A stretch of 64,000 nt of DNA. Origin: Anaerolineae bacterium. GTDB taxonomy: Bacteria > Chloroflexota > Anaerolineae > Aggregatilineales > Phototrophicaceae. The position numbers and the translations under genes are program-made. This document shows positions 58,226 to 63,406 of this stretch, piece by piece. The first letter of the stretch is position 1; each line of letters opens with the position of its first letter. The stretch spans positions 1-64,000 of the forward strand of contig JAIOHM010000205.1 in the NCBI GenBank assembly GCA_019912965.1, read 5' to 3'. The notes beneath the pieces are model-generated. The model was not told where the DNA came from. It saw only the letters and a program-made list of their open reading frames with translations, and did no database searches.

Positions 58226-58325
58226 TGTCATCCTGAAAACATTACATCCATAATCGCCAGCTTACCGCCCTATCGCCTGCCCCGTCAAGCCGATGTATCA
58301 TCATGCTTTGAGGAAAGGAAATGAC

Positions 58326-59105
58326 ATGACCCACAACACATTTACCCACGCCCTTGCTCGTTATCCGGCAACCAATATGGGCGATGGGCTAACTACCCAA
58401 ACGTTCGGCGCGCCGGATTGGAAACTGGCAATCCAACAGTATGAAAATTATCTTGATGCGCTGCGCGTTTGCGGTTTGAGCGTTACGGCACTCCCAGCGG
58501 ATTCCGCTTACCCGGATGGACATTTTGTGGAAGACGCGGCGGTGATTTATGGCGATCTGACCGTCATTACCCAGCCGGGTACAGCCATCCGCAGTACCGA
58601 AGTTGAATCAGTTGCGCGGGCATTGTCACATCGTCAACTGGTGTACATCACAGGTGAAGGTCATCTCGAAGGTGGGGATGTGTTGTTCTGTAGTGACCGG
58701 ATACTCATCGGTCTTTCGGAACGCACCAATTTGGAAGGCGCAAAACAGTTACGGGCAGCGCTGCAAAGTTATGATGTCAGTCTAAAAGTCGATTTTGTGC
58801 CAGTACATGGTGTGCTGCACCTTAAAACAGGCATCACTGAGCTTACGCCGGGGGTGCTGCTGCGTTCACCGCGCATGACCACCGATTACACCTTCGACTT
58901 TGCCGAAATGCATGTGCTGCCCATTGAGGAAGGGCATGGGGCAAATGTGCTGCCAATCAATGATGGGATATTGGTGATGAAGGGGTATCCGACGGTGCTT
59001 GATCTGGCGCAACGTCACTATACTCATATCCTCGAAATGCCGATGAGCGAGTTCCACAAAATGGATGGCAGCCTGACTTGCTTATCGCTGCGGTATACAG
59101 AGTAA
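58326..59105 (+). CDS. Dimethylargininase-like amidinotransferase-fold hydrolase (DDAH)
   Basis: The ATG at 58326 follows GAGGAAAGG and gives 259 residues. PDGHFVEDAAVIYGDLTVITQPG near residue 62 has the FVED motif, GHLEGGDVLFCSD the substrate loop, VLHLKTGITEL the catalytic His, and MDGSLTCLSLRY the nucleophilic Cys close to the C-terminus. DDAH enzymes hydrolyse N-methylated arginines to citrulline; relatives act on other guanidino compounds. The gene is monocistronic. A related role in arginine or creatinine metabolism cannot be excluded. Confidence 0.83.
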   Translation: MTHNTFTHALARYPATNMGDGLTTQTFGAPDWKLAIQQYENYLDALRVCGLSVTALPADSAYPDGHFVEDAAVIYGDLTVITQPGTAIRSTEVESVARALSHRQLVYITGEGHLEGGDVLFCSDRILIGLSERTNLEGAKQLRAALQSYDVSLKVDFVPVHGVLHLKTGITELTPGVLLRSPRMTTDYTFDFAEMHVLPIEEGHGANVLPINDGILVMKGYPTVLDLAQRHYTHILEMPMSEFHKMDGSLTCLSLRYTE

Positions 59106-59225: not shown

Positions 59226-60515
59226 ATGAGCAATCAAAAATCTTCCCGTATCTCCGGTTTTTATAGACGTTCGCTGGCGGAACGCGCTGCCGTTGTTGCC
59301 CAATGGGCCAATTTATCGACGCAGGAACAAGCTGTCCTGCTGGGCATGAATGGACTGAACGCCTCGCAAGCGGACAATATGATCGAAAACGCCATCGGCA
59401 TTTATGCGCTGCCATTGGGTGTTGCAACCAATTTCCTGATTAACGATCAAGATTATCTCGTCCCGATGGTGATTGAAGAACCATCGGTGGTGGCGGCGGT
59501 CAGCAACGCGGCGCGGTTATTCCGCGAAGGTGGTGGCTTCACCACATCCAGCGACGAACCGATCATGATTGGACAGATTCAGGTGCTTGATCTGCCCGAT
59601 ATTTATGTCGCGGCAGGCGCTATCCGCAGCAACAAAGACCGGCTGCTGGCAGAAGCCAATGAGATTGGCGGGAGCATCGTCAAACATGGCGGCGGCGCGC
59701 GTGATATTCAGGTGCGCCCGATTCTGGAAACGCCGATTGGCCCAATGCTGATCGTCCACCTGCTCTACGATACCCGCGACGCGATGGGTGCGAACGCCAT
59801 CAATACGGCAGTTGAGCATCTTGCACCGCGCATTGAAGAACTGACAGGCGGGCGAGTCAACTTGCGTATTTTGAGCAATCTGACCGACCAGCGCAAAGCC
59901 AGAGCCGAGGGCATGATTCCGGCGAAAGAACTGGCAAGCCAGAGCATCAGCGGGCAGGAAGCGGTGAAAGCGATTGTCGAGGCAGGCATCTTCGCAGAAG
60001 TTGACCCCTACCGCGCCACCACCCACAACAAAGGCATCATGAACGGAATCGACGCGGTGGTCATCGCCACAGGCAACGATTGGCGCGCGGTCGAATCCGG
60101 CGCACATGCCTATGCTGCCCGCGATGGACAATACCGCAGCCTGACAAAATGGTGGCAGGACGAAAACGGCAATCTGCGCGGCTCGATTGAACTGCCGCTG
60201 GCATTAGGTATCGTCGGTGGTGCAACGCGTGTGCATCCGGCGGCGGGTTTGGCACTAAAAATCCTCGGCATCCAATCCGCACGGCAGCTTTCGGAAATCG
60301 CGGCGGCGGTTGGCCTCGCACAAAATCTGGCAGCTATCCGCGCACTGGCAACCGAAGGCATCCAGAACGGGCATATGCGGATGCACGCACGGCAGTTGGC
60401 GGTAGCGGCGGGCGCATCCGGCGAACAGGTAGCACGTGTCGTGCAGACCATGATCGAAGAAGGCAGCATTCGTCTCGAACGGGCGAAGGCTTTGGTTCAA
60501 GAAATGACCTCATAA
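59226..60515 (+). CDS. mvaA: Hydroxymethylglutaryl-CoA reductase, class II
   Basis: A 429-residue enzyme of the class II (Pseudomonas mevalonii) type. MIENAIGIYALPLGVATNF is the substrate-entry segment, VIEEPSVVAAVSNAAR has the catalytic Glu, THNKGIMNGIDAVVIATGND has the catalytic Lys and Asp, and MRMHARQLAVAAGA the C-terminal His. Class II enzymes can run either way; with HMG-CoA synthase directly downstream the direction is more likely synthesis of mevalonate for isoprenoids. No membrane helix. Twelve bases separate it from the synthase gene. Confidence 0.9.
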   Translation: MSNQKSSRISGFYRRSLAERAAVVAQWANLSTQEQAVLLGMNGLNASQADNMIENAIGIYALPLGVATNFLINDQDYLVPMVIEEPSVVAAVSNAARLFREGGGFTTSSDEPIMIGQIQVLDLPDIYVAAGAIRSNKDRLLAEANEIGGSIVKHGGGARDIQVRPILETPIGPMLIVHLLYDTRDAMGANAINTAVEHLAPRIEELTGGRVNLRILSNLTDQRKARAEGMIPAKELASQSISGQEAVKAIVEAGIFAEVDPYRATTHNKGIMNGIDAVVIATGNDWRAVESGAHAYAARDGQYRSLTKWWQDENGNLRGSIELPLALGIVGGATRVHPAAGLALKILGIQSARQLSEIAAAVGLAQNLAAIRALATEGIQNGHMRMHARQLAVAAGASGEQVARVVQTMIEEGSIRLERAKALVQEMTS

Positions 60516-60527
60516 AGGAATAAACGA

Positions 60528-61613
60528 ATGGCATTGAATGGAACACATCCCAGTCAATCGAATTTTCTCATGAATCCTGACCGCCAAGTTGGTATCGTCG
60601 GTTATGGTGCATATGTCCCGCGATATCGTCTGCCGGGAGCAGAAGTTGCCCGCGTGTGGACGAACGGTTTAGGCGGCAGTCCGATCATTGAAAAGGCGGT
60701 CGCAGGGTTGGACGAAGACGTGACAACCATGTCGATTGAGGCGGCGCGTAACGCGATTGCCCGCGCCAATATTGATCCCCAACTCATCCGCGCGGTGTGG
60801 GTGGGCAGTGAAAGCCATCCCTACGCGGTCAAGCCAACCAGCACCATCGTCGCGGAAAGCATCGGTGCGTCGGCTAATATTCAGGCAGCCGATTGGGAAT
60901 TCGCCTGCAAAGCCGGAACGGAAGCGGTACAGGCTTCTATTGGTATGGTGGGCAGCGGCATGGTGGCTTATACCTTGAGCATCGGTATGGATACCGCGCA
61001 GGGACGCCCCGGTGATGCACTGGAATACACGGCGGCATCCGGCGGCGCGGCCTTTTTGATCGGCGCAGCGGCAGAATCGTGCGCGGTATATCAAGGCAGC
61101 TACAGTTACGTCACCGATACGCCGGATTTCTGGCGGCGTTCCGGCGAAACCTATCCGAGTCATGGCGACCGATTCACGGGCGAACCCGCCTATTTCAGCC
61201 ATGTGACATCAGCGGCGCAGGCACTCATGGATATGATGGGCACGAAGGCTAGTGATTACACGTATGCGGTTTTCCACCAGCCAAACGTCAAATTCCCCAG
61301 CCGCGCGGGAGAAATGTTGGGCTTTACTGAGGAACAAATCAAACACGGTCTACTGGCAGGGGTAGTTGGGAATGTGTATTCCGGCTCCTGTATGCTCGGC
61401 CTGACGGCGATATTGGATGTTGCAAAACCCGGCGACCGGATTTTGATGGTCAGCTATGGCAGCGGTGCGGGTTCGGATGCTTTCGACATCCGCGTAACGG
61501 AAAATATTGAAGCAGCACGCAACCGTGCCCCCAGCACCCGCGATTACATCAACCGCCGTACCCAGATTGATTATGCAACTTACTGCCGCTTCCGCGGCAA
61601 GCTAAAGGAATAA
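60528..61613 (+). CDS. Hydroxymethylglutaryl-CoA synthase (archaeal type)
   Basis: A 361-residue enzyme after AAAGGA; a second possible start is Met15. [20 protein letters not shown] opens the fold; [17 protein letters not shown] carries the general-base Glu near 64-71; [18 protein letters not shown] carries the nucleophile Cys127; [19 protein letters not shown] the catalytic His. These are all present, so it should be active in joining acetyl-CoA and acetoacetyl-CoA. In archaea this protein forms a complex with thiolase and a DUF35 protein, and both kinds of gene follow here. Confidence 0.9.
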
Positions 61614-61618
61614 CACCC

Positions 61619-62770
61619 ATGCGCGATGCAGCTATTGTTGGAATTGGGCAAATCCCGGTTGGTGAACATTGGGACAGCAGTTTGCGGATGTTGGCGGCTG
61701 ATGCCATTAATGCTGCGCTGGAAGATGCTGGACTGAAGCAGGTTGACGCCGTTTATGTGGGTAATGCCTATGGCGGCACATTGAGCAGCCAGACACAATT
61801 AGGCGCATTAGTGGCGGATTATGCGGGTCTGCGCGGTGTAGAAGCCTACACGATTGAAGCCGGAGATGCTTCCGGCGCGGCGGCTCTTCGCACAGGTTAT
61901 CTGGCGGTGGCTTCTGGTGCGGTGGAAACGGCGCTGATTATCGGCGTGGAAAAATGCACCGATATGATCGCAAGCGCACGGGTGCAAGCGCGGGGAGCAA
62001 GTCTGGATGCGGATTATGAAGCTACACACGGCGCTACATTGACCGCACTGGCTGCCCTGCTCATGCGGCGGTATATGCATGAATATGGTCTGGATTTGAA
62101 TGCGTTTGAGGGTTTCAGCATCAACGCCCATGCCAACGGTGCAAAAAGCGAATTCGCTATGTACCGCAACCTCATCAAGCCCGGACGATTTGCGAAAGCG
62201 CCAATGGTCGCCGAACCGGTCAGCCTGTTTGATACCGCCCCGGATGCGGATGGTGCAGCAGCAGTCATCATTACCAGTCGAGAACGCGCGGCGGATTTAG
62301 TGCCACAGCCGATTCGCATTACGGGCAGCGGCGCAGCAACCGACACTTTGACACTTCACGACCGGGCAGATTTGTTGTGGTTGAATGCCGTCGAACATTC
62401 AACGCGAAAAGCACTCACTCAAGCAGGAATTACAACCCATAACGTGAATCTATTTGAACTGCACGATGGCTTCACGGTTTTGAGCGCAATGGCTTTGGAA
62501 GGGGCGGGCTTTGCCGCACGGGGCGAAGGTTGGAAGCTGGCACAAAGTGGCGCAATTACACTAACAGGTTCACTGCCGATCAGCACGTTTGGCGGGTTGA
62601 AAGCGCGTGGTAATCCGGCGGGCGCAACGGGCATTTATCAAGCTGTTGAAGCCTGTTTGCAATTGCGCGGCACAGCAGGCGCAAACCAGATCGCCGACAC
62701 CCGAACCGCACTCATTCAAAATCTGGGTGGATTGGGCAGTACCGCCATCACCCATGTGTTGCAGGTGTAG
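61619..62770 (+). CDS. Thiolase-like protein (SCP2/archaeal ACAT family) lacking catalytic Cys and His
   Basis: A 383-residue protein after AAAGGA, six bases past the HMG-CoA synthase gene. It has the full thiolase fold: RDAAIVGIGQIPVGEHW, DAVYVGNAYGGTLSSQ, EDAGLKQVD and the C-terminal NLGGLGSTAITHVLQV. Where active thiolases have CxSG the chain reads EAGDASGAAAL, so position 83 is Asp, not Cys (codon GAT). The GHPxGATG motif reads GNPAGATG, so the second His is Asn332. Only the third site, His282 in FELHDGF, is normal. It therefore probably cannot form an acyl-Cys intermediate and may be a structural or substrate-channelling partner. The annotation as acetyl-CoA acetyltransferase by homology would be doubtful. 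Confidence 0.85.
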   Translation: MRDAAIVGIGQIPVGEHWDSSLRMLAADAINAALEDAGLKQVDAVYVGNAYGGTLSSQTQLGALVADYAGLRGVEAYTIEAGDASGAAALRTGYLAVASGAVETALIIGVEKCTDMIASARVQARGASLDADYEATHGATLTALAALLMRRYMHEYGLDLNAFEGFSINAHANGAKSEFAMYRNLIKPGRFAKAPMVAEPVSLFDTAPDADGAAAVIITSRERAADLVPQPIRITGSGAATDTLTLHDRADLLWLNAVEHSTRKALTQAGITTHNVNLFELHDGFTVLSAMALEGAGFAARGEGWKLAQSGAITLTGSLPISTFGGLKARGNPAGATGIYQAVEACLQLRGTAGANQIADTRTALIQNLGGLGSTAITHVLQV

Positions 62771-62915
62771 CCACCTTCGGCTAAAGATCGTGAAAATGAG
62801 AGCAAATGATAGCTCTCATCGCGCGGCTGATAGGTTTTGATAGCCTTCTGGAACTATGATGCAGATCAATTCGTGCAGAAATGCACAAATTATGATCGGA
62901 TAAGGAGTAATGACA

Positions 62916-63095
62916 ATGCAGATTTCAAGACACTGGCGTTTGAATTCCCAACGGTATCGTTTACAGGGTGTGCGCTACGAAACTGGCGAAGTTAGCCTTC
63001 AGGCGCGACCGAACCCCCTGAATACTGAAGAACTCCGCGCCACAGTCGTGCGCGATGAAAAGAAAGTCAAAGCCGAATTGAAGGCGGCTAGCTAA
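62916..63095 (+). CDS. DUF35 N-terminal segment as a separate small protein, no zinc-ribbon Cys
   Basis: The ATG at 62916 is eight bases after GGAG (an ATG at 62910 is too close) and gives 59 residues. SRHWRLNSQRYRLQGVRYE is the helix and opening of the DUF35 N-terminal region as I know it from full-length proteins (ISRHWR...QRYxLxG). In those, a CxxCG...CxxCG rubredoxin-like ribbon follows; here there is no Cys at all, only TGEVSLQARPNP. The gene ends TAA, and the OB-fold part begins two bases later in another frame. Probably made as a two-piece protein for the HMG-CoA synthase complex, or an early decay state. Confidence 0.7.
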   Translation: MQISRHWRLNSQRYRLQGVRYETGEVSLQARPNPLNTEELRATVVRDEKKVKAELKAAS

Positions 63096-63097
63096 TC

Positions 63098-63406
63098 ATG
63101 GCGGAAATCCGCAAACAGGTCGAAGTTCAACGCGAACAATTCACTTTCGCTGGAACGGGTGAAGTTTACAGTTTCACCACCGTACAGGAAACACCAGAAG
63201 GCTTCGACGACCAAGCCCCATACATGCTGGCACTGATTAAGCTGGACGAAGGGCCGCTGATTACGGCACAGCTTACCGATGTGGATGGTGAGGTGACGAT
63301 TGGCGACCGGGTGGAAATGGTCACTCGCAAGCTAACCGCCGAGGGCGCACGCGGCATGATTGTCTACGGCTACAAATTCCGTAAAGTGCTTCTCCGCGCA
63401 AACTAA
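63098..63406 (+). CDS. DUF35 OB-fold protein (HMG-CoA synthase partner)
   Basis: A 102-residue protein. FTFAGTGEVYSFTTVQETP, PYMLALIKLDEGPLITAQL and TDVDGEVTIGDRVEMVTRKL are the OB-fold strands of DUF35 (acyl-CoA-associated, DUF35_C); GARGMIVYGYKFRKVLL ends it. In archaea DUF35 bridges thiolase and HMG-CoA synthase and passes intermediates; in PhlB it forms part of an acyltransferase. A normal DUF35 has zinc ribbon and OB domain in one chain; here the ribbon part is a separate gene just upstream. Confidence 0.85.
   Translation: MAEIRKQVEVQREQFTFAGTGEVYSFTTVQETPEGFDDQAPYMLALIKLDEGPLITAQLTDVDGEVTIGDRVEMVTRKLTAEGARGMIVYGYKFRKVLLRAN

Follow-up and report, generated by a model that had tools for sequence, protein, structure and literature searches.

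Why would a cell keep, among its mevalonate genes, a thiolase-fold protein that lacks the residues by which thiolases act? The question is raised by a gene at positions 61619..62770 (+) of the window, the whole 64,000-nucleotide stretch of Anaerolineae DNA that was analyzed. Its 383-aa product is a thiolase-fold protein and probable pseudoenzyme, a Cys-less relative of the archaeal acetoacetyl-CoA thiolase. An earlier sequence-only reading offered three options for this protein: a scaffold, another chemistry, or dependence on a separate active thiolase. A scaffold combined with a separate thiolase is favored here. Another chemistry is less probable, since what occupies the old catalytic positions varies from lineage to lineage within the Cys-less clade. 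The protein is likely an ancient pseudoenzyme subunit, a structural and CoA-site partner of HMG-CoA synthase (HMGCS), with acetoacetyl-CoA coming from other thiolases.

The mevalonate gene cluster

The first pathway gene of the cluster encodes an HMG-CoA reductase of the TIGR00532 type (59226..60515, +). An arginine deiminase/DDAH-like gene (58293-59105) lies immediately upstream of it on the same strand. The archaeal-type HMGCS is encoded at 60528..61613 (+) and passes TIGR00748 with 535.2 bits (cut-off, 353.35). Its catalytic Glu95, Cys127 and His250 are all intact, as the sequence-only reading had held, and the catalytic Glu, Cys and His are present in 100/100 full-length HMGCS partners. 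The thiolase-fold gene adjoins this HMGCS, the gene neighbor that the archaeal complex would have. Further along are a 59-aa stub (62916..63095, +) and an OB-fold-only DUF35 half (63098..63406, +; PF01796 OB_ChsH2_C). The stub, which begins MQISRHWRLNSQRYRLQG..., is the N-terminal part of a DUF35 protein, contains no Cys and is separate from the OB domain; its start was picked by homology, and an in-frame ATG is also found at 62910.

No match to Dxr was found in the window's genome, and the mevalonate pathway thus appears to be the isoprenoid route of this cell. In the same phylum, the final enzymes of an alternative mevalonate pathway were biochemically demonstrated in Roseiflexus castenholzii, according to passages of PMC3857490.

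A thiolase fold without the thiolase residues

Thiolases possess a nucleophilic Cys in a CxS motif, a GHP His, and an HD-motif His. The first two are absent from the window's protein, as had been claimed from the sequence. Codon 83 (61865..61867, +) is GAT, placing Asp83 at the Cys position within AGDASGAAAL, and codon 332 (62612..62614, +) is AAT, placing Asn332 at the GHP His position within ARGNPAGATGIY. The GAT codon is two base changes away from TGT and three from TGC. The claim that the ELHDGF motif is kept also stands: residues 280-285 are retained with His282 (62462..62464, +) and Asp283.

The fold is predicted to be intact over the full length of the protein. Thiolase family matches span its whole length, the single-chain AlphaFold model is confident (pLDDT 92.5), and superposition on the thiolase chains 6et9/6esq of the archaeal complex gives a TM of 0.96/0.97 with an rmsd of 1.4. 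The closest solved proteins are the archaeal thiolases 7yvy and 6esq. The two best NCBIfam models, NF004720 (401.2 bits vs 420) and NF053570 (321.6 bits vs 600), do not reach their curated cut-offs. Judging from these models, automatic annotation is likely to call the protein a thiolase or acetyl-CoA acetyltransferase.

Two trivial explanations were rejected. A read error at codon 83 is excluded because the Cys is missing from 41/41 operon copies taken from separate assemblies. A pseudogene is rejected because no internal stop occurs in any listed genus match and dN/dS is ~0.11. Within the window's genus, the thiolase-fold gene has a median dN/dS of 0.114 (29/120 pairs with dS < 2) and HMGCS a median of 0.075 (45/120 pairs), values that are read with synonymous sites near saturation.

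Distribution in Chloroflexota

To place the window's protein, 301 evenly drawn Chloroflexota genomes were surveyed. Thiolase matches were found in 105/301 (E <= 1e-40) and archaeal-type HMGCS matches in 64/301 (E <= 1e-60). A thiolase-fold gene lies on the HMGCS strand within 2.3 kb in 63/64 of the HMGCS genomes; in the 64th (G305), the HMGCS match stops at the end of its contig, and the thiolase sits on a different one. The operon copy lacks the Cys in 53/64 genomes, G305 included, and keeps the Cys, GHP His and HD His in the other 11/64. The absence of the Cys, which the sequence-only reading proposed to check across the phylum along with residue 332, is therefore not a local oddity. A 3.2-kb contig of another genome (G354), with a sub-threshold HMGCS, also carries the Cys-less form and is outside this count. 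In six genomes (G094, G103, G138, G162, G170, G340) one in-frame TGA is flagged in the HMGCS match, possibly through N-terminal overextension of the alignment.

Among the 41 operon copies that passed length filters (the window's own and 40 from relatives), residue 83 is Asp in 30, Glu in 10 and Gly in one, and residue 332 is Asn in 38, His in two and Asp in one. Further D/N copies occur at L060 and L061, and Cys-less copies at L137 and L146; no HMGCS was seen in the fetched flanks of these four loci. At L068 and L069, from one relative (G047), the operon genes and a second copy are spread over several frames, which is possibly an assembly error.

A pattern scan of contigs, in which one of two patterns was [AG][DE]ASG[GA], yielded at least 80 loci (L075-L154) and is biased to the mutated state. 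These loci were excluded from the 64-genome count, the trees, and the 41-row and 90-row counts; L095 is included among the 44 Cys-type rows described below, and L098, L100 and L149 are included among seven rows that keep the His. One mevalonate cluster with a Cys-less copy has a Cys-type (CASG/GHP) copy as well, located a few kb upstream at L095:711-1892. Two non-operon relatives, L231 and L232, have Thr in place of Cys (TATG) and keep GHP; the operon copy of their genomes is Cys-type.

An old clade that probably lost the Cys first

The Cys-less operon proteins form a single clade of 51 rows with an SH-aLRT support of 98 in a tree of 109 rows; for two of the 51 (L060, L234), no HMGCS was found in the fetched stretch. 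Removal of the four motif regions leaves the clade in place with a support of 94, and the idea that the grouping arises from the mutated motifs alone is rejected. A more careful tree of 66 rows, which excludes distant rows, L210, L231, L232 and 18 near rows, recovers the clade at 90/94 with the motif columns removed, and one origin is found in 94% of 200 bootstrap trees. A recent local loss is likewise rejected, since the Cys-less proteins form an old clade. The HMGCS tree needs three changes, not one, between Cys-type and Cys-less partners, and long branches meet in it, so that simple vertical descent cannot be claimed for the operon as a whole.

The order of losses may be read from the operon rows that lack the Cys and keep the GHP His. 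Seven rows are of this kind (L031, L064, L098, L100, L149, L191, L252); three stem from the biased scan, and since the contigs of L100 and L031 are equally long, six of the seven are likely different. Because these rows still have the His, the sequences suggest that the Cys was lost before the GHP His.

The 44 Cys-type rows and 90 Cys-less rows share 55 positions that are at least 95% conserved in both. In the 90 Cys-less rows, which are 89 different ones as L155 is counted twice, Cys83 is kept in none and His332 in four. Gly occupies position 83 in 44/90, mostly outside the window's clade.

Different lineages carry different residues at the lost sites. The window's clade has D/E with N, a second lineage has mostly G with F, and a third has mostly G with D, in addition to H285 and W145. 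The HD-motif His is mostly lost in the third lineage. Rows were assigned to lineages by locus number, which enters L155 twice, in the first and in the second group, and misplaces L201 and L252 in the third.

A new catalytic activity on CoA thioesters, in which the carboxylate of D/E83 works with N332 and H282 in the window's clade, would account for the constancy of these residues there (D/E83 in 40/41, N332 in 39/41 and H282 in 40/41, with L155 included). The aldolases Ltp2 and Sal arose on the same fold, and passages of PMC12329534 describe such repurposed thiolase-fold partners of DUF35 proteins, including Sal, with Gly in place of the Cys. A single new reaction common to the Chloroflexota proteins is difficult to reconcile with the variation of the old catalytic positions from lineage to lineage: the other two have mostly G83 with F332 or D332, and one is mostly without H282. 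Moreover, the motif Tyr of Ltp2/Sal is absent at that position of the window's protein. We regard a new activity as unlikely.

Probable sources of acetoacetyl-CoA

The sequence-only reading suggested a genome search for other thiolases. Four classical thiolases, each with every motif, are present in the window's genome, and a classical thiolase is found in 52/52 of the Cys-less-operon genomes tested, which favors the option of a separate active thiolase. Across the other HMGCS genomes, 60/63 have a classical thiolase match (E <= 1e-20), and the motifs were complete in 30/30 when one locus was taken from each of 30 of these 60 genomes. The three genomes without a match (G097, G196, G292) all have a Cys-type operon. 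This association gives a Fisher p of 0.004, a value that ignores kinship.

These counts also bear on a residual or substrate-assisted thiolase activity that would run without the Cys, the acyl acceptor being Asp/Glu or an HMGCS residue. Carboxylate acyl acceptors occur in CoA transferases, and a carboxylate at position 83 would have that precedent. In archaea, the gene at this place in the operon encodes the enzyme that forms acetoacetyl-CoA, as passages of PMC6392133 describe. Against this, 44/90 Cys-less rows have Gly83, though mostly outside the window's clade, and the Cys is retained in the only three of 63 genomes that lack a classical thiolase match, a pattern expected of a Cys-less form unable to provide acetoacetyl-CoA. 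Residual activity is very unlikely on these grounds. The thiolase reaction should not be run by the pseudo-thiolase, judging from its residues, because the nucleophilic Cys, and mostly the GHP His too, is lost.

Cys-containing SCP2-type paralogues are a further possible source. In families f9 and f12, a Cys/His/His copy is found elsewhere in 22/22 Cys-less-operon genomes. A second copy, 48-50% identical, is present in 15/16 siblings of the window's genus, and the Cys/His/His was confirmed in the nine genomes fetched. No Cys-type SCP2 thiolase paralogue was found in the window's genome, nor a second copy in the sibling G011; the absence from the window's genome may be a real loss or an assembly gap. 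A second copy was not seen in many Cys-less-operon genomes (E <= 1e-40, among at most six scored candidates per genome), and a general pairing of the Cys-less protein with a Cys paralogue as a heteromer is not supported.

A split DUF35 scaffold

In DUF35 proteins of this kind a zinc ribbon precedes an OB fold, and passages of PMC6996347 state that, as of 2019, every DUF35 protein of known structure binds zinc. In the window, the OB half is present, the zinc cysteines are absent, and the gene is split. The stub retains the RHWRL..QRYRL.G segment seen in relatives and has no cysteines. Within the genus, each piece is constrained by purifying selection, with a median dN/dS of 0.192 for the stub (32/120 pairs) and 0.077 for the OB piece (38/120 pairs), again with synonymous sites near saturation. 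The stub may serve for docking, by analogy with the PhlABC subunit PhlB, a DUF35 protein whose N-terminal tails tightly contact both partners (passages of PMC6392133).

DUF35 matches without the zinc-ribbon pattern are found in 26/26 operon rows at loci L005-L030. In the survey, all 11/11 Cys-type operons have a zinc-ribbon DUF35 by pattern match within 4 kb. For the 53 Cys-less cases, a DUF35 within the same distance has the zinc pattern in 10 and lacks it in 29. The remaining 14/53 showed no DUF35 within 4 kb, and some Cys-less operons may thus have an incomplete scaffold. At three loci (L105:7310-7930, L125:7314-7976, L149:7237-7887), tandem DUF35 genes encode a zinc-ribbon-only stub and then a full zinc-ribbon/OB protein; this is possibly the ancestral layout of the window's split gene.

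A proposed pseudoenzyme partner of HMG-CoA synthase

The catalytic residues are lost, the gene is retained under selection beside an intact HMGCS, and other thiolases are present. The dead thiolase is probably kept as a structural partner of HMGCS in most of the mevalonate-using Chloroflexota sampled. Purifying selection in the genus and adjacency to HMGCS in 63/64 genomes favor the scaffold option, in which the role itself would be structural. In the proposed history, the protein would go back to an archaeal-type acetoacetyl-CoA thiolase/HMGCS/DUF35 complex, in which it was the thiolase subunit. An ancestor shared by most mevalonate-using Chloroflexota would have lost the nucleophilic Cys, and the GHP His would also have gone in the majority of lineages. 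The gene would be retained because HMGCS physically needs its product, which may dimerize, bind HMGCS and the OB domain of DUF35, and complete a shared CoA-binding cleft at the subunit interface. DUF35 has decayed alongside it in the window's family, with loss of the zinc cysteines and splitting of the gene.

We infer the physical complex and the CoA-site contribution by analogy with archaea. Passages of PMC6392133 describe an archaeal complex in which CoA is bound at an interface made by all three proteins, and a shared CoA site is likewise described in passages of PMC12329534. A dead thiolase would have a reason to be kept because this interface uses all three proteins. Acetoacetyl-CoA would be supplied by separate thiolases, either classical or a Cys-containing SCP2-type paralogue, and would reach HMGCS free, channeling having presumably been lost.

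A point against free drift is that each lineage largely fixed its own dead-site residues. Some ligand-binding role of the dead site may persist, because these residues are more ordered than free drift would leave them. A regulatory subunit, which would tune HMGCS through acetyl-CoA, CoA or acetoacetyl-CoA bound at its dead site, would draw on the lineage-specific residues conserved at the former active site and on the CoA interface that is built from all three proteins in the homologous complex (passages of PMC6392133). However, the pockets differ between the three lineages, and the cavity should be filled by F332 where it occurs, which makes such regulation distinctly unlikely. A bolder version is comparably doubtful: HMGCS would be bound obligately to a dead thiolase that contributes part of the CoA site, and the pocket, rebuilt in three ways after the loss of the Cys (D/E-N, G-F, and G-D with H285 and W145), would have turned a channeling enzyme into a ligand-sensing or gating subunit that controls the entry of free acetoacetyl-CoA across most mevalonate-using Chloroflexota.

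The structural and CoA-site partnership, which we prefer, would make this protein a widespread pseudoenzyme in what appears to be the isoprenoid pathway of the cell. Cys-type and Cys-less operons offer a natural test of whether the thiolase subunit serves catalysis and channeling or only the structure of HMGCS. Archaeal-type mevalonate operons transferred to other hosts may also be without the activity of the first enzyme.

Comparison with known systems

The cluster is a new, dead-thiolase variant of a known complex and not a new kind of system. In the titles, abstract beginnings and passages of open-access literature surveyed, no Cys-less thiolase of this complex was described. The Methanothermococcus thermolithotrophicus thiolase/HMGCS/DUF35 complex (6esq/6et9) has the three protein kinds in common with the window. 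Its thiolase shares the full-length fold with the window's protein (TM 0.96-0.97, rmsd 1.4, 36% identity) and keeps a GH motif and, according to passages of PMC6392133, Cys85, whereas the window's protein has neither the Cys nor the His. The DUF35 of the window, unlike that of this complex, is split and without zinc cysteines. The closest solved sequence is the Pyrococcus furiosus thiolase PFC_04095 (7yvy; E 1.6e-106, whole length), which is a tree neighbor of the Chloroflexota proteins and, unlike the window's protein, keeps EAACASGG and ARGHPVGATG.

Thiolase-like proteins with other catalytic residues are also known. The Ltp2-ChsH2(DUF35) and Sal-Shy(DUF35) aldolases combine an SCP2-thiolase fold, non-thiolase catalytic residues and a DUF35 partner, and have YDHF/YDCY motifs where the window's protein, aligned by eye, has ELHDGF at 280-285 (passages of PMC12329534). 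These aldolases are described as acting on steroid side chains, whereas the window's protein adjoins HMGCS. The Sulfolobus tokodaii thiolase-like protein ST0096 (4yzo), aligned from residue 39, has a residue other than Cys opposite position 83 and, unlike the window's protein, keeps GHP.

The multicomponent acyltransferase PhlABC (PpATase) shares the three-part architecture of the window's cluster, as passages of PMC6392133 describe. Its HMGCS-like PhlA is without the Cys and Glu, and activity still needs all three subunits. In PhlABC a dead PhlA accompanies a working thiolase-like PhlC; in the window's cluster, these roles are reversed.
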